Origin: Clostridia bacterium
GTDB lineage: Bacteria; Bacillota; Clostridia; Oscillospirales; CAG-272
Assembly: GCA_017503105.1 (NCBI GenBank)
Contig: JAFVTS010000028.1
Span: 1 to 64,000, forward strand
DNA: 64,000 nt
Direction of reading: 5' to 3'
Shown here piece by piece: positions 411 to 54,955 of the stretch. Both the position numbers and the translations under genes were made by a program. The notes below the pieces were generated by a model that did not search any database, had not been told where the DNA came from, and saw only the letters and a list, made by a program, of their open reading frames with translations. Within the stretch, counting starts at the first letter, position 1. Each line of letters starts with the position of its first letter.

Positions 411-2294
411 ATGAGAAAAAAGCAATTTAAAGCCGAGTCGCAAAAGCTGCTTGATATGATGATCAATTCGATCTACACGCACAAGGAGATCTTCTTGCGC
501 GAGCTCATATCAAACGCGAGCGACGCCATTGATAAGCTCTATTTCCGTTCGCTCACAGACACGGACGTTCACGTGAGCCGCGGAGATTACGCCATCAATA
601 TTATAATAGATAAGGAAGAAAAGACTCTCACGATTTCCGACAACGGCTGCGGAATGACGAAGGAAGAGCTTGAAAACAACCTCGGAACTATCGCGAAGAG
701 CGGCTCGTTCGACTTCAAGCGCACGAACGAGGGCGGCGAGGACGTGGACATCATCGGTCAATTCGGCGTCGGCTTCTATTCGGCGTTTATGGTGGCGGAC
801 AGGATAACCGTTCGCTCAAAGCCCTACGGAAGTAACGAGGCGACCGTTTGGGAATCCGAGGGTGTCAGCGGTTACACGACGGACACCTGCGACAAGAGCA
901 CGTTCGGAACGGAGATAATTCTTCACATAAAGGAAGACACGGACGACGAGCGCTACTCGGAATTCCTTGACGATTACAGAATAAGATCGCTTGTTAAGAA
1001 ATATTCCGACTACATCCGCTATCCCATCAAGATGGCTGTGGAAAAGAGCAGAAAGAAAGAGGGTACGGACGGCGAGTACGAAAAGTACACCGAGATCGAA
1101 ACGCTCAACAGTATGATACCTCTTTGGAAGCGCCCCGCATCCGAGGTGACGGACGAGGAATACAAGAGCTTCTACACGGAGAAATTCTTTGATTACGAAG
1201 CTCCCGCAAAGGTCATCACGCAAAAATCCGAGGGCACGGCAACTTACACCGCCCTGCTCTTCATTCCCTCTCACGTGCCGTTCAACTATTACACGAAGGA
1301 CTACGAAAAGGGACTCGAGCTTTATTCCTCGGGCGTTATGATAATGGACAAGTGCCCCGACCTTCTGCCCGATTATTTCGGCTTCGTTAAGGGTCTTGTA
1401 GACTCTGCCGACCTTTCGCTCAACATCTCGCGCGAGATGCTCCAGCACGACAGACAGCTCAAGGTTATGGCTAAGGCTATTGAGAAGAAGATCAAGAGCG
1501 AGCTTGAAAAGATGATGGAAAACGACCGCGAGAAGTACGAGAAGTTCTTCGACGCCTTCGGAATCCAGCTCAAGTACGGCGTTTATTCCGATTACGGAAT
1601 GCACAAGGACACGCTCCAAGACCTCCTTCTCTTCCGCTCGTCGAACGACAGAAAGTACGTTTCCTTGAAGGAATACACCTCATCTCTTAAGGAAGAGCAG
1701 AAGACCATCTACTACGCCGCGGGCGAAACGATCGACAAGATCGAGCTCTTGCCCCAGGTCGAGGCGGTCAAGAGCCGCGGATTTGAGGTACTCTACCTCA
1801 CCGACGACGTTGACGAGTTTGCGCTCAAGATAATCGGCAAGTACGCGGACTGCGACTTCAAGAACGTTACCGCAGAGGCGCTTGACCTTTCAAGCGACGA
1901 GGAAAAGGAAGCACTCAAAAAGGAGAATGAGTCCGCAGAGGCAATGCTCGGCGCTATGAAGGACGCGATAGGAAAGGTTTCCGCCGTTAAGTTCACCGCG
2001 TCCCTCGGCAAGCACCCCGTCTGCCTCTCAAGCGAGGGCGAGCTTTCCGTTGAGATGGAGAAGATACTCAAGAAGATGCCCGGCGTCGATGAAAACGCAC
2101 CGAAGGCGAGCGTCGTGCTTGAGATAAATATGAATCACCCGATTGCGGAAAAGCTTAAGAGCCTGCACGAAACCGATGCCGAAAAGCTCGGCAAGTACGC
2201 GCGAATCCTTTACGCGGAGGCTTGCCTCATCGGCGGTGTTTCGATTGAAAATCCCGCAGAGCTCACCGAGCTTATCTCGGAGCTTATGGTATAA
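411..2294 (+). CDS. htpG: molecular chaperone HtpG (Hsp90)
   Basis: ATP-dependent cytosolic Hsp90 chaperone, 627 residues, full length for bacterial HtpG. The GHKL ATPase domain shows E31, N35 and D39 in ELISNASDA, DNGCGM at 77-82 (ATP-contacting Asp) and the glycine-rich lid motif IGQFGVGFYSAF at 115-126. Middle and C-terminal dimerisation domains follow, with no eukaryotic MEEVD tail, as is normal for bacteria. The start is fixed by ACGGAGGT ending 10 nt before ATG. The gene is monocistronic, with a sigA promoter and CIRCE upstream and an intrinsic terminator just downstream. CIRCE control differs from Bacillus subtilis, where htpG is not in the HrcA regulon. Confidence 0.97.
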   Translation: MRKKQFKAESQKLLDMMINSIYTHKEIFLRELISNASDAIDKLYFRSLTDTDVHVSRGDYAINIIIDKEEKTLTISDNGCGMTKEELENNLGTIAKSGSFDFKRTNEGGEDVDIIGQFGVGFYSAFMVADRITVRSKPYGSNEATVWESEGVSGYTTDTCDKSTFGTEIILHIKEDTDDERYSEFLDDYRIRSLVKKYSDYIRYPIKMAVEKSRKKEGTDGEYEKYTEIETLNSMIPLWKRPASEVTDEEYKSFYTEKFFDYEAPAKVITQKSEGTATYTALLFIPSHVPFNYYTKDYEKGLELYSSGVMIMDKCPDLLPDYFGFVKGLVDSADLSLNISREMLQHDRQLKVMAKAIEKKIKSELEKMMENDREKYEKFFDAFGIQLKYGVYSDYGMHKDTLQDLLLFRSSNDRKYVSLKEYTSSLKEEQKTIYYAAGETIDKIELLPQVEAVKSRGFEVLYLTDDVDEFALKIIGKYADCDFKNVTAEALDLSSDEEKEALKKENESAEAMLGAMKDAIGKVSAVKFTASLGKHPVCLSSEGELSVEMEKILKKMPGVDENAPKASVVLEINMNHPIAEKLKSLHETDAEKLGKYARILYAEACLIGGVSIENPAELTELISELMV

Positions 2295-14185: not shown

Positions 14186-14198
14186 ATATTAAACTCGA

Positions 14199-14362
14199 TA
14201 TGATAGAGGTGCGTTTTGTCATAAAACCCGAAAGTAACGGTTGTCAAAAGACCGCGGGGAGGGGCAGGCGCCGAAGGCGACTTTCTTTTTGACGGGGAGC
14301 CGTTCTGGCAGTGTGGAATAAGATCTGTACTGTTGTCGCATTTTTGCGGAGGGCTATCTTTC
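14199..14362 (+). promoter_or_regulatory. lysine riboswitch (L box)
   Basis: The aptamer begins with the signature GATAGAGGTGCG and includes GGCGCCGAAGGCG in the middle. It closes with the conserved GTACTGTTGTCGC, TTTGCGGAGGGCTATCTT block. The 5' GATAG and 3' CTATC form P1. An intrinsic terminator follows at 14411-14437 before dapA. In the known mechanism lysine binding stabilises the aptamer and favours termination, lowering diaminopimelate and lysine synthesis. The operon content (dapA, dapB, lysA) agrees. Confidence 0.93.
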
Positions 14363-14410
14363 ACACGCTTTTATCCTTATTTTACGGAAAAATCAGCGGA
14401 CGTGCAAACG

Positions 14411-29455: not shown

Positions 29456-29714
29456 AAAATCCCCGAGGCGAAATTCGAAAATATCGCCTCGGGGCGTTAA
29501 AAACGCGGTACCACCCGATTTCGGGAGAAATTCTCCCCTCAAAAATTCCTTAACGCGGAAAACGACGCCGAATTCTAATAAGCTAAGGGGAGCTTCCCCG
29601 CACCGTTCTTTTCGGAATTAACCAACAAGCGACCTTCGGGACACCGACTCAAAGACTTGCACCAACCGTCTTCTCTCTGCGCGAATCAAGCCACCCCTAC
29701 TCCTCTTTTGGACT
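29456..29714 (-). promoter_or_regulatory. T-box riboswitch controlling valS
   Basis: Minus-strand leader of about 255 nt. The antiterminator core TGGTACCGCG is at 29504-29513. The terminator is CCCCGAGGCGA/TCGCCTCGGGG (29461-29471 with 29484-29494) followed by a T run. The stem I apical loop GGTTGGTGCAA is present near 29657-29667. Several GUC valine triplets occur on the 3' side of stem I, one at 29631-29633 after CCGAAG; which one is the specifier is not resolved. All agree with valS downstream. Uncharged tRNA-Val would promote readthrough. Confidence 0.93.
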
Positions 29715-29721
29715 TTTTATT

Positions 29722-29750
29722 ATTTTACCACAAATCACGCGTTTTGTCAA
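29722..29750 (-). promoter_or_regulatory. promoter of the T-box/valS operon
   Basis: On the minus strand TTGACA (29745-29750) and TAAAAT (29722-29727) with a 17-bp spacer. It is followed directly by the T-box leader. Confidence 0.85.
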
Positions 29751-29818: not shown

Positions 29819-31297
29819 TTATTTTGCGAGTTTCGCCTGTGTTTTTGAAACTTCCGAAATCGCTCCGTTTACGGCACCGTCAAACATATTTGAGAACGTT
29901 TTTTGAGCTGTTTTGTAACAACTACCATATCCGTATATATTATTCAATTCGGACAATATATCTTTTCCCTTTGAACATTTTTCTATTATTTTTACTATCT
30001 TTCCTCCGTACGTATCCATCAACGTATTACACATTGCTGACAAATATGTTTTAAGGGAGTTTAACGTTGCCGCTCTCTTGCTTGTATATCCGCTTGCAAG
30101 ACCCTGCATACAATCTGTTCCCGCGATAAGAAAAGCTGCTCTTGCGTTTACCAAAGAAGTCTCTACTTTTTCGGCTTCTTCAAAGGATGATATTCCATCC
30201 TTGCAATAATTTTTCACCTTATTGCTCTCGCCAAGCGCCGTGTTTGTAATTCCATCTAAATATATGGCGGTCATAAGTGTCATATAAGATTCTTTTGTTA
30301 AATATTTGCCCGACGAAATGAGTCCCATAGGATTGGCGCTTACCATAGTGCTCACAACGGAGCCGGAAGCAGAACCGATAAATTTCTGAGTAAGCTGAGC
30401 ATCAAGAATTTTTTGACAAACGTCATTTAATACTTTTACATTAGCATAATTATTTCTAAGACTTTCAAAGCCGTTGGTCTTGCTGCTTAAAATGTCAACT
30501 GCATAGGTGAACATAAGTTTTTCGAGCACTGCAGAATTGGTGACCGCTGTATAGTTCGAATTCAAAAATACCATTGAGCCTTTTTTTACTCCGTTATATC
30601 CCGTCTTTAACGTCGCATAATAGTATTTCGTGTTTCCGATCTTATAGGTTTTCACAATATTACATTTTGATGAAAGATTTACCGCTTTTGCCGTGTTTGT
30701 GCCCCTGCTGCTATTTTGGTTAGAAGCCGAAACATTACTTACCTTAAGCGCCGAGCTTGTCCATACCTGATACTTGTCTTTGGGATTGTATTTTTTCAAA
30801 CATACATTGCTTGAATTTTTAGATCCGGTAGCCGTTAGAACATAATTCTGATTATTTGCCGAGCGAATCACAAAACCGCTAAACGAAGGATTATAGTCTA
30901 TTATCCAAGACTGTGTGTTATGTCCGGTCTTGCTCCAGAGGCAAACGTTAGAATTATTCTTTGCAGAATTACCGTATACGTTGACAGCGCGAGACGTAGC
31001 GCAACGCGGAACGATAACATATGCATTACCTTTCTTTACAAACTGAAACAGCTGTCCTGTTGTTCCATCCGCTTGATAGACGGTTACATTAGCGTTGTTT
31101 CTATTTTGATTTCCATATACGTTTAAAAGTTTTCCACTTCCAACGTTCTTGATAGTTACGTATTTTCCGGTTGTAACGTTTTCTGTATATCTGTCAGAAG
31201 ATGACGCCGCAAAAGCGGGAATTGTCATAGCACACAGCGTGGAAACGATAATTAAAAAACAAATGATAGCCGAAAAAATTCTTTTTGTTTTAATCAT
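29819..31297 (-). CDS. secreted protein with ricin-type beta-trefoil lectin domain
   Basis: About 492 residues from ATG 31295-31297, which has GGAGG 8 nt ahead; an in-frame ATG at 31324 lacks a site. A Sec signal peptide (about 1-31, cleaved after PAFA) is followed by a ricin B-like beta-trefoil (about 37-185) with three repeats ending in Q-x-W/F motifs (GQLFQF, TQSWII, YQVWTS). A 300-residue, mostly helical C-terminal region of unknown fold follows. The lectin part probably binds carbohydrate outside the cell. No catalytic motif is visible. A candidate structured RNA with its own terminator lies directly upstream. Base composition is more AT-rich than the neighbours, which may mark transfer. 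Confidence 0.75.
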   Translation of the reverse strand: MIKTKRIFSAIICFLIIVSTLCAMTIPAFAASSSDRYTENVTTGKYVTIKNVGSGKLLNVYGNQNRNNANVTVYQADGTTGQLFQFVKKGNAYVIVPRCATSRAVNVYGNSAKNNSNVCLWSKTGHNTQSWIIDYNPSFSGFVIRSANNQNYVLTATGSKNSSNVCLKKYNPKDKYQVWTSSALKVSNVSASNQNSSRGTNTAKAVNLSSKCNIVKTYKIGNTKYYYATLKTGYNGVKKGSMVFLNSNYTAVTNSAVLEKLMFTYAVDILSSKTNGFESLRNNYANVKVLNDVCQKILDAQLTQKFIGSASGSVVSTMVSANPMGLISSGKYLTKESYMTLMTAIYLDGITNTALGESNKVKNYCKDGISSFEEAEKVETSLVNARAAFLIAGTDCMQGLASGYTSKRAATLNSLKTYLSAMCNTLMDTYGGKIVKIIEKCSKGKDILSELNNIYGYGSCYKTAQKTFSNMFDGAVNGAISEVSKTQAKLAK

Positions 31298-31339: not shown

Positions 31340-31387
31340 AAACCTATTAAACCTCCTTTAAACAAGCTACACTTTCTATCCTGCATA

Positions 31388-31599
31388 AATAAAAAGTGCG
31401 CGCAACCGAAGTTACACGCACCAAAAACGCAAACTCCGATTGTCGCCAAACAAATTTAAATAGAGTTAAGGCACTAAAACCATAATCATTTAAATGGAAT
31501 TTGCATTTTATGCAACTACAAAAATGATTATGGCTAAAAAAGGTATAATTATCCCCTAAGAAAAAATACCTTAATCTCTATTATTAAATTTGTTTGGCG
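31388..31599 (-). ncRNA. candidate structured ncRNA, copy C
   Basis: About 212 nt on the minus strand. Outer helix: CGCCAAACAAATTTAA at 31584-31599 pairs perfectly with its complement at 31444-31459, extended by AGAG and TTAAGG pairing. Inside are a GGTAT/ATACC hairpin and a 12-bp helix CCATAATCATTT/AAATGATTATGG (31480-31491, 31522-31533) capped by TTGCAT-AAA-ATGCAA. The RNA ends in a terminator GTGCGTGTAAC-TTCG-GTTGCGCGCAC (31396-31421) plus T run. It shares the segment CCTTTTTTAGCCATA and the overall layout with the tandem RNAs at 38298 and 38591. There is no conserved ORF. It could be an independent RNA or an attenuator of the lectin gene. Confidence 0.7.
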
Positions 31600-31604
31600 A
31601 GAAT

Positions 31605-31633
31605 ATTATAGCACAAAAAAGAGAAACTTACAA
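31605..31633 (-). promoter_or_regulatory. promoter of ncRNA copy C
   Basis: On the minus strand TTGTAA (31628-31633) and TATAAT (31605-31610), 17-bp spacer. The predicted start falls at the first base of the outer helix, the same arrangement as copies A and B. Confidence 0.75.
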
Positions 31634-34867: not shown

Positions 34868-35923
34868 TTATTTCGCGTACTTATCCGACGCCCACTCGCA
34901 CAGCGCTTCCATCATTAGCATATGAGAGAGGTATATCTGATCGTTATTGAATATCAGCTTTCCGTGGTCGCAAAGCCCTTGATTTGACTCAAAGGTGATG
35001 CAAGGCGCACCGCAGCAATGATGCATCGCCGAGATAAGATTGAAGGATGCGGGAGTTTCAGCATCCTCCCCCGCCCTGCTTTCAAGACCCGCGCCGAGCT
35101 TTTCAAATCCGACAAGACCTGCCGCCTCGTACTTAGGACGGATGTACTTCGCCATCTCTATCATCTCACGCTTGGAGTTGCCCGATGCGTATTCAAGATT
35201 CGTAAAGAGCGGCGGACAGTTGCTGCCGCCGTGGCAAAGCACTGCAACGTCGGGAGCGTATTCCGCGCAGACGTCAAGGACGTTCTGCGTTTCGTTCGCG
35301 TTATGACCGAAGAAATTGTCGTGCATCATATTAACGCCGTCGTCGTTGAAGTAACCGCCAAGGTAAGCGACGTGGTCCTTGATGGGATGAACCTGCTTGC
35401 ACTCGGGCCAGCCGCAGAGCTCGCCGTTTTTCCAGATTCCCTGATTGTAATATCTGAGGTCGTAGAAGGTGTGACCCACGAAATTGTCGAACGGAATGTG
35501 GCTTCTGCCGTCGGGGTTGCACATAGGGGTGAGGATGAGATGCACCTTTTCCGCCGCGGAGAGAAGCTTGTCGTTCTTATTGCCTGCGAGATCTACGCCC
35601 GTTTCAAGAAGGCTGATGAGGTTCATTATTGCAACGGTACCCTCGAACTCACCGCCGTGGATACAGCCCGCAAAATATACCGTCGGAACGTAGTCTGCGC
35701 CGCGCTTATCTGCGTAGCAGTTGAAATCCTTACCGCCGAGGGCGCTCGAAAGATTCGCCTTACGGGGCGGAAGATTGCTCTTGCCGTACTCGACCATATA
35801 AATAGGTCTTCCACCTGCGGAGGGAAGAAGCTCCTTTACGGTGCCACGCTTTACCTTTTTAATTCCTTCGTTTACAAGCTCAACGCTGCCGTGCCAATAA
35901 ATCGGAAGTGCCGCTTCTGCCAT
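34868..35923 (-). CDS. M14 family zinc carboxypeptidase-like (copy 3)
   Basis: 351 residues, zinc metallopeptidase of the M14 fold. Zinc ligands H89 and E92 in IHGGEFE and H231 in LCHGG; NPDGR at 136-140 supplies the substrate-binding Arg; the catalytic Glu is E312 in TFESNQG. There is no signal peptide, so it acts in the cytoplasm. It is the last of three tandem paralogues, 11 nt after the second, and very close to it in DNA. Possible roles are trimming of peptides or of peptide-bearing cell-wall fragments; the family also includes DAP-specific peptidases and deacylases. Substrate unknown. Confidence 0.85.
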   Translation of the reverse strand: MAEAALPIYWHGSVELVNEGIKKVKRGTVKELLPSAGGRPIYMVEYGKSNLPPRKANLSSALGGKDFNCYADKRGADYVPTVYFAGCIHGGEFEGTVAIMNLISLLETGVDLAGNKNDKLLSAAEKVHLILTPMCNPDGRSHIPFDNFVGHTFYDLRYYNQGIWKNGELCGWPECKQVHPIKDHVAYLGGYFNDDGVNMMHDNFFGHNANETQNVLDVCAEYAPDVAVLCHGGSNCPPLFTNLEYASGNSKREMIEMAKYIRPKYEAAGLVGFEKLGAGLESRAGEDAETPASFNLISAMHHCCGAPCITFESNQGLCDHGKLIFNNDQIYLSHMLMMEALCEWASDKYAK

Positions 35924-35934
35924 TGTTTTTCTCC

Positions 35935-36990
35935 TTATTTTCCAAACTTAGAGAGTGCCCACTCACAAAGAGCCTCTATCATAAGCATATGCGAAAGGTA
36001 GATCTCGTCGTTGTTAAGAACGTAACTGTTCTCTTTTATAAGACCCTGGTTAGACTCAAACGTGATACAAGGCGCACCGCAGCAGTGATGCATTGCCGAG
36101 ATGAGGTTGAAGGATGCGGGACGCTCAGCGTCCTCGCCTCTGCGATTTTCAAATCTGTCGCCAATGTTTTCAAATCCGCGAAGCTCGGTAGAGTCGTACT
36201 TCGAACGAACGAGCGTTGCTATCTCCGTCATCGCGCGCTTCGCGTTGCCCGACGCATATTCAAGGGGCGTAAAATGCGGAGCAGAATTGTCACCGCCGTG
36301 GCAGAGCACCGCAATGTCGGGAGCGTATTCCGAGCAGACGTCAAGGACGTTCTGCGTTTCGTTTGCGTTATGACCGAAGAAATTGTCGTGCATCATATTA
36401 ACGCCGTCATCGTTGAAATAACCGCCAAGGTAAGCGACGTGGTCCTTGATGGGATGAATCTGCTTGCACTCGGGCCAGCCGCAGAGCTCACCGTTCTTCC
36501 AGATTCCCTGATTGTAATATCTGAGGTCGTAGAAGGTGTGACCCACGAAATTGTCGAACGGAATGTGGCTTCTGCCGTCGGGGTTGCACATAGGGGTGAG
36601 CACGAGATGAACGCGCTCGGCAAGGCTCTTAAGCTTGTCGTTCTTGTTGCCCGCGAGGTCTACGCCCGTTTCAAGAAGGCTGATAAGGTTCATTATTGCA
36701 ACGGTACCCTCGAACTCGCCGCCGTGGATACAGCCTGCTATGTACACGGTGGGAACGTAGTCCGCGCCGCGCTTGTCTGCGTAGCAGTTGAAGTCTTTTC
36801 CGCCGAGGGCGCTCGAAAGATTCGCCTTGCGGGGCGGAAGATTGCTCGTGCCGTACTCGACCATATAAATAGGTCTGCCGCCCGCGGAGGGAAGAAGCTC
36901 CTTTACGGTGCCCTTTTTAATTTTCTTGAGATCCTCGTTTACGGCATCGACGCTGCCGTGCCAATAGATTGGAAGTGCTGCTTCTGACAT
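35935..36990 (-). CDS. M14 family zinc carboxypeptidase-like (copy 2)
   Basis: 351 residues with the same active site as copy 3: IHGGEFE, NPDGR, LCHGGDN and TFESNQG. In the central part (about 36390-36610) the DNA differs from copy 3 at only a handful of positions, so the duplication is recent or kept alike by gene conversion. Differences concentrate in the C-terminal third (residues about 236-290), which lines the substrate pocket in M14 enzymes. Middle gene of the three-gene operon. RBS AAGGAG precedes ATG. Confidence 0.85.
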   Translation of the reverse strand: MSEAALPIYWHGSVDAVNEDLKKIKKGTVKELLPSAGGRPIYMVEYGTSNLPPRKANLSSALGGKDFNCYADKRGADYVPTVYIAGCIHGGEFEGTVAIMNLISLLETGVDLAGNKNDKLKSLAERVHLVLTPMCNPDGRSHIPFDNFVGHTFYDLRYYNQGIWKNGELCGWPECKQIHPIKDHVAYLGGYFNDDGVNMMHDNFFGHNANETQNVLDVCSEYAPDIAVLCHGGDNSAPHFTPLEYASGNAKRAMTEIATLVRSKYDSTELRGFENIGDRFENRRGEDAERPASFNLISAMHHCCGAPCITFESNQGLIKENSYVLNNDEIYLSHMLMIEALCEWALSKFGK

Positions 36991-37007
36991 TTTATTTTTC
37001 TCCTTAA

Positions 37008-38084
37008 TTATTTATTAGACTTTGCCGCTCTCGCCGCCGCGCTCTTATTATCAAGAGTCCACCTAAGCGCAACTTCCATAAAGAGCATATGGCAGCGGTA
37101 TATTTCATCGTTGTTAAGACAATAGCTGTTCGGCTTGACAAGACCCTGATTAGATTCATAAGTAACGCAGGGCTCGCCGCAGGTGTTGAACATTGCCGAG
37201 GTGAGAGTGAACGGAGGAAGGCCCGTGTCCTCACCGCCTGACTTTGCAAACGCCTCGCTGATGGTAAAGATGAAGCCCTCTTTTGCGAAAGCCTCGGTAG
37301 TGAGATTCGCGACCTCCGTCATCTGACGGCGCGCCTCTGCCGTAATATAGCTTACGGGGAAGAAATGGTTTCTCGAATTGTCACCGCCGTGGAAGAGCAC
37401 GCTGAAATCGGGTGCGTAATCTCTCGTTACCTCAAGGACGTTCTTCACCTCGTTACAGGGGTTCATGAAATAATCGTCGTGCATCATATTTACGCCGTCG
37501 TCGTTAAAGTAACCGCCAAGGTAGCTTACGTACTCCTTGATGGGATGACGCGTCTTGCATCCGGGCCAACCGCAGAGCTCGCCGTTCTTCCAAGCGCCTT
37601 GGTTATAATAACGGAGATCCTCGAAGGTGTGACCCACGAAATTATCAAACGGAATGTGGCTTCTGCCGTCGGGATTGCACATAGGCATAAGTATGAGATG
37701 GAGCTTTTCTGCTACGGAAAGAAGCGCGTCGTTAGGCTTTCCCGCAAGGTCGACGCCCGTTTCAAGAAGGCTGATGAGATTCATTATTCCGACAGTACCC
37801 TCAAACTCGCCGCCGTGGATACAGCCCGCAAGAAATACGGTAGGTACGTAATCCGCGCCCGTCTTGTCAGCGTAACAGTTATAATCCCTCGCTCCGAGGG
37901 CGCTGGAAAGCGACGCTAAGGACTTGGGAAGAGTGTTTTTGCCATACTCGACCATATAAATGGGTCTGCCGCCCGCCGACGGACGAAGCTCCTTTACGGT
38001 GCCCTTCTTCACCTTTTTAAGGTCCTCATTGACGGCATCGACGCTTCCGTGCCAATATACGGGGAGCTCTATGATTTCCTGCAT
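37008..38084 (-). CDS. M14 family zinc carboxypeptidase-like (copy 1)
   Basis: 358 residues, first gene of the triplet and the most diverged. Ligands are conserved (IHGGEFE, NPDGR, LFHGGDN, TYESNQG). It has an extended, Ala/Lys-rich C-terminus. It sits 17 nt ahead of copy 2 behind the only promoter found. AAAAGGAG precedes ATG. As with its paralogues the protein is cytoplasmic and the substrate unknown. Confidence 0.85.
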   Translation of the reverse strand: MQEIIELPVYWHGSVDAVNEDLKKVKKGTVKELRPSAGGRPIYMVEYGKNTLPKSLASLSSALGARDYNCYADKTGADYVPTVFLAGCIHGGEFEGTVGIMNLISLLETGVDLAGKPNDALLSVAEKLHLILMPMCNPDGRSHIPFDNFVGHTFEDLRYYNQGAWKNGELCGWPGCKTRHPIKEYVSYLGGYFNDDGVNMMHDDYFMNPCNEVKNVLEVTRDYAPDFSVLFHGGDNSRNHFFPVSYITAEARRQMTEVANLTTEAFAKEGFIFTISEAFAKSGGEDTGLPPFTLTSAMFNTCGEPCVTYESNQGLVKPNSYCLNNDEIYRCHMLFMEVALRWTLDNKSAAARAAKSNK

Positions 38085-38264: not shown

Positions 38265-38293
38265 TTGAAAAATGAATAAATAAGTGTTATAAT
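38265..38293 (+). promoter_or_regulatory. promoter of ncRNA copy A
   Basis: TTGAAA (38265-38270), 17-bp spacer, TATAAT (38288-38293). The predicted start falls at the base of the outer helix. Confidence 0.8.
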
Positions 38294-38297
38294 ATAA

Positions 38298-38479
38298 GTG
38301 CCACACTAATTGAATAAAAACATCTTATGGGCGCATTGCGCCTTTTTTAGGGTGTACTATATCTTTTGGTAGATATACCATATCGCAAATATCCCCCTCA
38401 AAGGATGTTTTATTAGTGTGGCAACTATGCGAGAGGTATTCTGCGGTGTCATCTCACTCTGGGGTGGCACCTTATTTTT
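38298..38479 (+). ncRNA. candidate structured ncRNA, copy A
   Basis: About 180 nt. Helices: P1 GCCACACTAAT/ATTAGTGTGGC (38300-38310, 38412-38422); P2 AAAACATC/GATGTTTT (38317-38324, 38404-38411); P3 GGCGC-ATT-GCGCC (38330-38342); P4 AGGG/CCCT (38349-38352, 38395-38398); P5 TATATC/GATATA (38358-38363, 38372-38377). A linker ACTATGCGAGAGGTATTCTG follows, then a terminator GGTGTCATCTC/GGGGTGGCACC (38445-38455, 38461-38471) with T run. No shared ORF exists with copy B. No co-directional gene lies downstream, so it is probably trans-acting rather than a riboswitch. Family unknown. Confidence 0.8.
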
Positions 38480-38557
38480 GCGAGATTGCTTCCGAAATTT
38501 ATGAGCCTTATAATTGCATAATCGTTAAGCAAAAAAGTTTTTTCTTCCGATTTTATC

Positions 38558-38586
38558 TTGAAAAATGAATAAATAAGTGTTATAAT
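38558..38586 (+). promoter_or_regulatory. promoter of ncRNA copy B
   Basis: TTGAAA (38558-38563), 17-bp spacer, TATAAT (38581-38586); identical to the copy A promoter including the spacer. Confidence 0.8.
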
Positions 38587-38590
38587 ATAA

Positions 38591-38775
38591 GTGCCACATC
38601 ATTTTAATACAAATAACCTACGCAAGGGTGTATTATACCCTTTTTTAGCCATACTATTTCGGTAGAAATACGTTATCGCAATAATCGGCTGAAAAGTAGG
38701 TTATTATATGGTGTGGCAACTATGCGAGAGGTATTCTGCGGTGTCATCTCGCTCTGGGGTGGCACCTTATTTTTT
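38591..38775 (+). ncRNA. candidate structured ncRNA, copy B
   Basis: About 185 nt with the same architecture as copy A but different bases in the helices. P1 GCCACATCAT/ATGGTGTGGC (38593-38602, 38708-38717); P2 AATAACCTA/TAGGTTATT (38612-38620, 38697-38705); P3 GGGTGT-ATT-ATACCC (38626-38640); P4 AGCC/GGCT (38647-38650, 38687-38690); P5 TATTTC-GGTA-GAAATA (38655-38670). The linker and terminator are as in A (38740-38775). Helix pairing is retained while sequence changes, the mark of a selected RNA structure. Confidence 0.8.
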
Positions 38776-38940
38776 GCGAGATTGCTTCCGAAATTTATGA
38801 GCCTTATAATTGCATAATCGTTAAGCAAAAAAGTTTTTTCTTTTGAATTTATCTTGAAAATAAAGCATATAAATACGCAGAACAAAAAAAGCACGCAAAT
38901 ATCGTGAACCTTTGGAAATAAAGACCTATATATTGGTAAA

Positions 38941-54699: not shown

Positions 54700-54955
54700 T
54701 TGTTTTGTCCTCCTTTTACGTATTGCTCGTGCCGTTTAAGAAGGGCGATGAGGTTTTACACTGTGCCGAGCGTATCAAATCCGCCCCATTAAAATCAGTT
54801 CACAAATCCTACCGCAGAGGAAAAGCGAACCGAAAATAAAACACAGCTGCCGCAAGCGGCATAACTCTTGTTTCGCCCGGTTAAATATCGGACATACTCC
54901 ACGGAAATTCCCTACCTCTTCGGGTAGCCACCTCCCGCTTCATCGCATATCAAGC
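54700..54955 (-). promoter_or_regulatory. long structured leader of the S10 operon
   Basis: About 255 nt from the predicted start to rpsJ. On the minus strand it includes the hairpin CTACCCGAAGAGGTAG (about 54915-54930) and GCCGC-TT-GCGGC (about 54851-54862), but no ORF with a ribosome binding site. Leaders of this kind often bind L4 or another r-protein; no known motif was matched with certainty. Confidence 0.5.

Follow-up and report, generated by a model that had tools for sequence, protein, structure and literature searches.

Three copies of one structured RNA, A, B and C, are harboured by the window, the whole 64,000-nucleotide stretch of DNA from a Clostridia bacterium (contig JAFVTS010000028.1) analysed here. 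That this RNA family is real is near certain. Computation reveals a family characterized by an outer helix, P1, and a pseudoknot that covary, by an antiterminator pairing that coevolves, and by a position between a promoter and a gene. A, B and C are quite probably promoter-proximal leaders, predicted transcription attenuators that most likely represent a riboswitch-like class; for the family at large, a cis-acting attenuator is the likely reading. Copies A and B are orphan copies of the family's switch.

Copies A and B stand in tandem on the plus strand with a period of 293-296 bp, and consist of the following parts.

38265..38293, plus strand: promoter of copy A, TTGAAA-17-TATAAT, 11 of 12 consensus matches
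38298..38478, plus strand: copy A, whole RNA (putative 5' end), with P1 strands at 38299-38310 and 38412-38423
38368..38387, plus strand: internal strand of the copy A pseudoknot, GGUA...UCGCA, including the TATCGCAA of the initial annotation
38428..38444, plus strand: switch strand of copy A, 3' of P1, whose partner is 38368-38387 or the terminator 5' arm
38445..38471, plus strand: intrinsic terminator stem-loop of copy A, -16.4 kcal/mol, followed by TTATTTTT
38558..38586, plus strand: promoter of copy B, TTGAAA-17-TATAAT, 11 of 12 consensus matches
38591..38774, plus strand: copy B, whole RNA (putative 5' end), with P1 strands at 38592-38602 and 38708-38718
38661..38680, plus strand: internal strand of the copy B pseudoknot
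38723..38739, plus strand: switch strand of copy B, pairing in the pseudoknot or as antiterminator GCGAGA/TCTCGC
38740..38766, plus strand: intrinsic terminator stem-loop of copy B, -16.0 kcal/mol

The initial annotation had described a tandem pair of structured RNA genes with compensatory base changes, each comprising TTGAAA-17-TATAAT, a multi-helix core and a terminator. Both copies are indeed real and so composed, the promoter being of the sigma-70 type, and the terminator stem is counted here as 12 pairs in each. The folding energies, -65 kcal/mol for A (z -6.0) and -67.3 kcal/mol for B (z -6.5), were equalled by 0 of 200 shuffles in either case, and the compensatory changes are confirmed. 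The two copies agree in 80 of 131 columns of the core and in 54 of 56 columns 3' of P1. Among the proposed helices, P1, P2 and P3 are present, with 98.5, 75.0 and ~93% of cells paired in six sequences, and so, judged by eye, is P4. P5 (TATATC/GATATA in one copy, TATTTC/GAAATA in the other) can form, but not as the sole state: it competes with a longer pseudoknot that had been overlooked, in which GGUAGA...UAUCGCA of copy A pairs with UGCGAGAGGUAUUCUGC, copy B being similar. The supposedly fixed single strand TATCGCAA belongs to this alternative pairing.

The third member lies on the opposite strand. The initial annotation had named a copy C and given no place for it, and the RNA listed below may or may not be the one meant. 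Three leaders that reached Rfam gathering scores in the window are included.

31387..31599, minus strand: copy C, third family member, in canonical form
~31605-31633, minus strand: promoter of copy C
31496-31510 and 31423-31438, minus strand: pseudoknot strands of copy C, -17.9 kcal/mol
31395-31422, minus strand: terminator of copy C
29822..31297, minus strand: gene behind copy C, encoding a 492-aa protein, with its start 97 nt past the terminator and GGAGG before it
29487-29722, minus strand: T-box leader (RF00230)
14196-14364, plus strand: lysine riboswitch
54873-54952, minus strand: S10-Clostridia ribosomal leader

The protein encoded behind copy C carries a ricin-type lectin domain and, by eye, an N-terminal signal-like stretch. 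No co-directional gene follows A or B, as the initial annotation had recognized. The pair is flanked on one side by a run of minus-strand ORFs (34868-38084) and on the other by two minus-strand ORFs that we take, by sequence, to encode ribosomal protein L17 and RNA polymerase alpha. A meaningful association with these ribosomal neighbours was rejected, as relatives of A and B adjoin other genes (by eye). The run comprises three similar tandem ORFs of 351, 351 and 358 aa (34868-35923, 35935-36990 and 37008-38084, minus strand), presumably M14-type carboxypeptidases judging by their sequence. The stretch past each terminator (38475-38564 and 38771-38860) is also duplicated, with 97% identity over 90 nt; it holds no plus-strand ORF of 60 aa or more and is possibly what is left of a vanished gene.

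The extent of the family was surveyed with two covariance models. R1 describes A, B and four relatives, without the pseudoknot or the antiterminator pairing; R2 describes 27 diverse copies, and its pairs are those of P1 and the terminator only. Copy A matches R1 at 38299-38479 with E 3.2e-35 and copy B with E 7.8e-42, both copies having served to build that model; against R2, in whose construction neither took part, the values are 9.4e-9 and 3.5e-8. Copy C scores 1.4e-3 with R1 and 2.6e-23 with R2, which was built with it. Of the 196 genomes searched in the family, 51 contain the RNA by R1 (E up to 1) and 120 by R2 (E up to 0.001); in the class, R2 finds it in 98 of 391 (E up to 0.01). In a phylum draw of 299 genomes, which takes in some members of the class, R2 found only the window's own genome positive. 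The family, class and phylum counts each include that genome, and some copies counted in the family and own-genome searches also served in model building. Copy numbers per genome are lower bounds, at most 12 candidates having been scored in the family, 6 in the class and 7 in the phylum. The window's genome accommodates 11 copies at E 3.5e-8 or better with R2, A and B included; copy C alone among these entered the building of R2. Homologues with covarying helices in related gut Clostridia genomes, which the initial annotation had proposed to look for with covariance models, thus exist.

An exact 28-base pattern matched at least 117 stretches among 84,980 species genomes. Among the 80 matches listed, the single isolate is Pumilibacter intestinalis CLA-AA-M10, a cultured carrier of a copy (L175); the other 79 are metagenome-assembled genomes, many from named animal gut samples and with names such as Clostridia or Oscillospiraceae. 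When the family was searched in the manner of blastn, mainly close copies were recovered. A weak match of this kind, L008, proved to be a diverged copy; another candidate, L007, was discarded because by eye it resembled coding sequence. From a set of 88 matches we removed eight that were antisense to a true one and six truncated at a locus end, and from a further 80 five antisense matches and L084, a fragment of 87 nt. Of the 148 copies kept, 146 are distinct; removal of L108:1168-1364, in which P1 was misassigned, leaves 145, of which 74 were found through the 28-base pattern and 71 through the model. Tandem copies also occur elsewhere, at L053, L106 and L108 and at G297:C70 and G449:C42; at L106 a related ORF, of 51 and 78 aa, lies behind each tandem copy.

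As would be expected of a sensor, the family displays a conserved and covarying fold, made up of P1 and the pseudoknot. In the 27 diverse copies P1 comprises 12 bp and the pseudoknot 14 bp; across these two elements and the terminator base, 97.1% of cells are paired, although the pairing of P1 was partly selected by R1, which models that helix. Double-sided changes affect 19 of 32 pairs, and the covariation score of 0.394 compares with 0.056-0.106 when partners are slid by 1 to 3 columns and was reached by 0 of 500 shuffles. In the pseudoknot, a loop enclosed by P1 (typically GGUAAAAAYGCAAAUUCC) pairs with the strand immediately 3' of that helix (typically GGAGUUUGCGUUUUU). Directly after P1 come six bases that read RRCDWY (the last is A in two copies), with C at the third place in all 71 of 71. 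Covariation is thin when the six A/B-type sequences are taken by themselves: the score is 0.168 against 0.027-0.115 for slid partners, with six double-change pairs against seven at a slide of -3 and none in the pseudoknot. This weaker support is due in part to the misalignment of P2 by MAFFT.

The strand 3' of P1, the switch strand, has a second possible partner besides the loop, namely the terminator 5' arm. Because both pairings share this one strand they are mutually exclusive, as in attenuators: either the pseudoknot coexists with the terminator, or an antiterminator forms. Coevolution of the two pairings was assessed on the 71 model-found copies, collapsed to 52 distinct switch strands, with A standing for B; the 74 pattern-found copies were left out because the 28-base pattern fixes the switch strand. 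Over the 52 switch strands, pairing with a copy's own loop region yields -18.6 kcal/mol, as against -14.7 with the loop regions of other copies, and pairing with its own terminator 5' arm -11.5 as against -8.7. For each pairing, permutations attained the own-pair energy in 0 of 5000 cases, in tests that ignore the relatedness of the copies. Controls with the region upstream and the region downstream gave 2736 and 3910 of 5000, and controls of the loop region with the terminator 5' and 3' arms 1310 and 2588 of 5000. The switch strand with the terminator 3' arm, a control that was expected not to pair, was also low at 9 of 5000, a weak signal that may reflect relatedness.

Folding of the nascent 3' region, before the terminator 3' arm is made, points in the same direction. 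It attains z below -1 relative to plain shuffles in 62 of 71 copies, a score that counts any fold of the segment; among the 11 folds that were printed and inspected, 10 contain pairs between the switch strand and the terminator arm, the exception being copy A. The finished terminator averages -15.2 kcal/mol and the nascent fold -13.0. Copy C is characterized by a nascent antiterminator with z -2.4. In copy B the antiterminator fold of the nascent segment is weak (-9.8 kcal/mol, z -0.5), and in copy A, with z +0.7, the antiterminator is lost or nearly so. By computation, then, the family possesses an expression-platform strand that overlaps the sensor, as in riboswitches; in copy A this arrangement is not intact. 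With the antiterminator lost or weak in A and B, switch function may fail there.

The RNA begins at a nearly constant distance from a promoter. In 139 of 143 copies it starts 5 or 6 nt after the end of the best -10 box, both hexamers score at least 9 of 12 in 125 of 143 (vs 7.7% of plain shuffles), and the spacer, for which 16 to 18 nt were allowed, measures 17 nt in 130 of 143. Downstream, among the 137 copies with enough sequence, a start codon with a Shine-Dalgarno element lies within 120 nt of the terminator in 104 and within 45 nt in 76. The same rule yields 13.1% and 4.4%, respectively, at 2650 random places, and 21 of 129 and 9 of 129 on the divergent side; a slightly different gene-start rule detects a gene behind 102 of 145 copies. 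Some of the 33 copies without a gene start by the first rule have a gene with a weaker ribosome site. The RNA therefore occupies the 5' UTR of a co-directional gene in those 104 copies, as a riboswitch would; A and B are not among them. The initial annotation had regarded A and B as genes for a probably trans-acting RNA. The RNA does possess its own promoter, by consensus matches, and its own terminator, but it lacks the gene-free downstream region of a small-RNA gene, so that this description fails for the family: the order is leader, own terminator, then gene. Action in trans, at odds with the exchange of terminator and antiterminator across the family, may at most apply to orphans such as A and B.

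The downstream genes are heterogeneous. A set of 104 proteins, a number equal to the 104 gene starts by chance, was compared with Pfam; it comprises the genes of the second rule together with the YpsA-like ORFs of two loci, L004 and L005, that of L006 being taken at an upstream start. These proteins match 77 families (E up to 0.01). Among the 25 families listed, BspA-type leucine-rich repeats lead with 10 of 104, followed by zinc ribbons and the copper amine oxidase N-terminal domain (five each), SHOCT and MazE/AbrB-like domains (four each) and ricin-type lectins (two). No common pathway emerges among the 25 listed of the 77 families, so that no ligand can be named. A defence role was rejected: four PADLOC families were matched, each by just one of the 104 proteins.

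Several small proteins recur behind the leader. A cysteine-rich protein of 59-72 aa (..GIELTPG..C.GNG..ECCCDECDY..) follows it at six loci (L053:1501-1714, plus strand, L074, L077, L081, L095 and L107), three of them in the window's genome; three of these proteins, scanned singly, matched no Pfam family. Small AbrB/MazE-like proteins with a cysteine-rich C-terminal region are encoded at L078, L104, L142, L144, L191 and L196, four of which entered the Pfam set. Similar proteins lie behind the leader at L179, L181 and, by eye, L234, and the match of one of the 104 proteins to an EcoRI-type methylase (9.5e-132) is presumably that of L179.

The nearest relatives of A and B illustrate what the pair lacks. 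Three of the four (L004, L005 and L006, one in the same genus and two in other genera) run directly into an ORF that starts 1-4 nt past the match; behind the fourth, L003, lies a convergent ORF. The L005 protein is 69 and 64% identical to those of L004 and L006, and the three are tentatively YpsA/SLOG-like: two of them had no Pfam match at E up to 0.001, and PF06908 is matched by two of the 104 downstream proteins, not individually named, with a best E of 1.1e-4. In the window's genome, 96.5% complete in 44 contigs, no close homologue of this gene was found, the relatives detected being 29-30% identical and on other contigs. A decayed YpsA-like gene behind A or B was considered and, by eye, was not convincing. 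Since no gene lies behind A and B whereas their relatives mostly have one, the pair is taken as a tandem duplication that lost its gene. A and B are probably relics, or at most decoys.

The initial annotation could not match the RNA to any family, and no family of Rfam 15 fits the copies tested. At the gathering threshold nothing was found on A, B or C, whereas the same search recovered the T-box, the lysine riboswitch and the S10 leader in the window. A looser search of the A/B region, at E up to 10, gave seven weak matches, the best at E 0.78 and all far below thresholds; weak matches also numbered eight for copy C (best E 0.14) and two for one other locus, L072 (best E 3.6). At E up to 0.1, twenty related loci had no match on the RNA itself, the matches being a tRNA and two to Gut-1 in L070. 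At that locus a Gut-1 RNA (567-641, plus strand) lies near one copy, and a weaker, inverted match (660-739, minus strand) falls below threshold. Neither raiA nor 6S RNA was matched on the copies tested. No description of the RNA appears among the full-text literature matches listed; the one match for a motif string was a human cancer paper.

T-box RNAs are clostridial leaders with a terminator and an antiterminator. The present RNAs resemble them in all these respects, and differ in that they have no RF00230 match and that the gene families listed behind them are not amino-acid genes. With riboswitches that use transcriptional platforms they share the leader position, a covarying sensor domain, an intrinsic terminator, a strand common to sensor and antiterminator, and tandem pairs at some loci. 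Unlike the riboswitches of Rfam, they match no model, have a promoter fixed directly at P1 and show no pathway theme in the genes listed. In tandem riboswitches a promoter between two leaders has been described for one adenine/T-box pair (PMC9481103); A and B likewise form a series of two terminator-bearing leaders, but each has its own promoter and no gene lies behind them. Fremin and Bhatt (2021; PMC8040213) reported 3161 structured RNA candidates from human microbiomes, with which the present family shares the gut habitat; the abstract and sections 6 and 7 of that paper do not describe the RNA, and the supplementary tables, which hold the candidates themselves, may already include it.

In the scheme that we favour, transcription would start at the 5' strand of P1, which is predicted to enclose a sensor domain comprising P2, variable hairpins and the loop of the GGUAAAAAYGCAAAUUCC type. 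In the OFF state the switch strand GGAGUUUGCGUUUUU would be held in the pseudoknot with this loop, leaving the terminator free to form; in the ON state it would leave the pseudoknot and form an antiterminator with the terminator 5' arm, allowing transcription of the downstream gene. The balance would be shifted by a signal, probably a small molecule and possibly a protein or a physical cue. That this exchange occurs in the cell, that it runs in this direction and that a signal governs it, we infer. Copies A and B would mostly yield terminated RNAs of ~180 nt, because A can hardly form the antiterminator. A riboswitch-like class is favoured because orphan classes associated with mixed genes have proved to be ligand sensors: the GEMM, crcB and ydaO riboswitches began as orphans with varied genes and were later shown to sense the widely used ligands c-di-GMP, fluoride and c-di-AMP (PMC7266159). 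A bolder version, which we hold tentatively as a possibility short of an even chance, takes the RNA for a new riboswitch class, very abundant in largely uncultured gut Clostridia; this class would respond to some global signal and command a large regulon, with orphans of the A/B type as signal decoys. That regulon might, on the same tentative footing, embrace surface, lipoprotein, lectin, zinc-ribbon and YpsA/SLOG-like genes, under a signal such as a second messenger or a gut-derived metabolite.

The architecture is silent on the kind of signal, and instead of a metabolite an RNA-binding protein, a tRNA or a small RNA could govern the same exchange. That no pathway is evident in the downstream genes is compatible with a global regulator and with a global metabolite alike, while the absence of a T-box match on these RNAs speaks against this alternative, which we consider rather unlikely. 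For A and B in particular, a different fate can be envisaged, namely constitutively terminated leaders kept as trans-acting small RNAs or as decoys that titrate the signal. Both copies retain promoter, P1, pseudoknot and terminator, the terminators are strong (-16.4 and -16.0 kcal/mol) and A no longer has its antiterminator; in Listeria, the leader Rli51 is reported to act in trans as well (PMC11394854). Such retention for a function is nevertheless unlikely, as gene-less copies are a minority of the family and the stretch past each terminator is duplicated too, as a plain tandem duplication would give.

It is distinctly unlikely that the promoter, leader and terminator constitute a mobile cassette, spread by recombination, that provides accessory genes with an insulated promoter and senses nothing. 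In accord with such a cassette, as many as 12 copies were counted in a genome (12 being the number scored), the genes behind them are unrelated, several genomes have tandem copies, those of the A/B type have different neighbours in other genomes (by eye), and two unverified phage scaffolds carry copies; a mere promoter, on the other hand, needs no coevolving pseudoknot and antiterminator. Four exact-pattern scans of viral contigs returned no match, and a blastn search with one copy found none in plasmids. Among phage records, blastn with the same query gave partial matches in two, both unverified scaffolds that hold the RNA; a phage origin was rejected. One, L235 (MT835845.1, named Bacteriophage sp.), may be mislabelled, as its ORFs look bacterial, presumably ClpB- and YicC-like by their sequence; the other, L234, has an ORF that resembles the L179 and L181 proteins by eye. 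Type III toxin-antitoxin systems of the ToxI kind display the same order of promoter, structured RNA, terminator and toxin gene, but this identity is hardly credible here, given downstream genes in many unrelated families, with no ToxN-type toxin among the 25 listed of 77, and an RNA that forms a single folded unit with a terminator/antiterminator exchange.

The riboswitch-like attenuator thus remains the preferred reading, and its switch model makes a sharp prediction, cheap to test, as to which strand pairs with which. Carried by 120 of 196 family genomes and 98 of 391 class genomes, and with no Rfam 15 family matched by the copies tested, the RNA would rank as a major RNA regulator in uncultured gut Clostridia. 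Judging by the 145 copies examined, it would link many accessory and surface genes that are otherwise unexplained, and its signal, once found, would tell what these bacteria sense.
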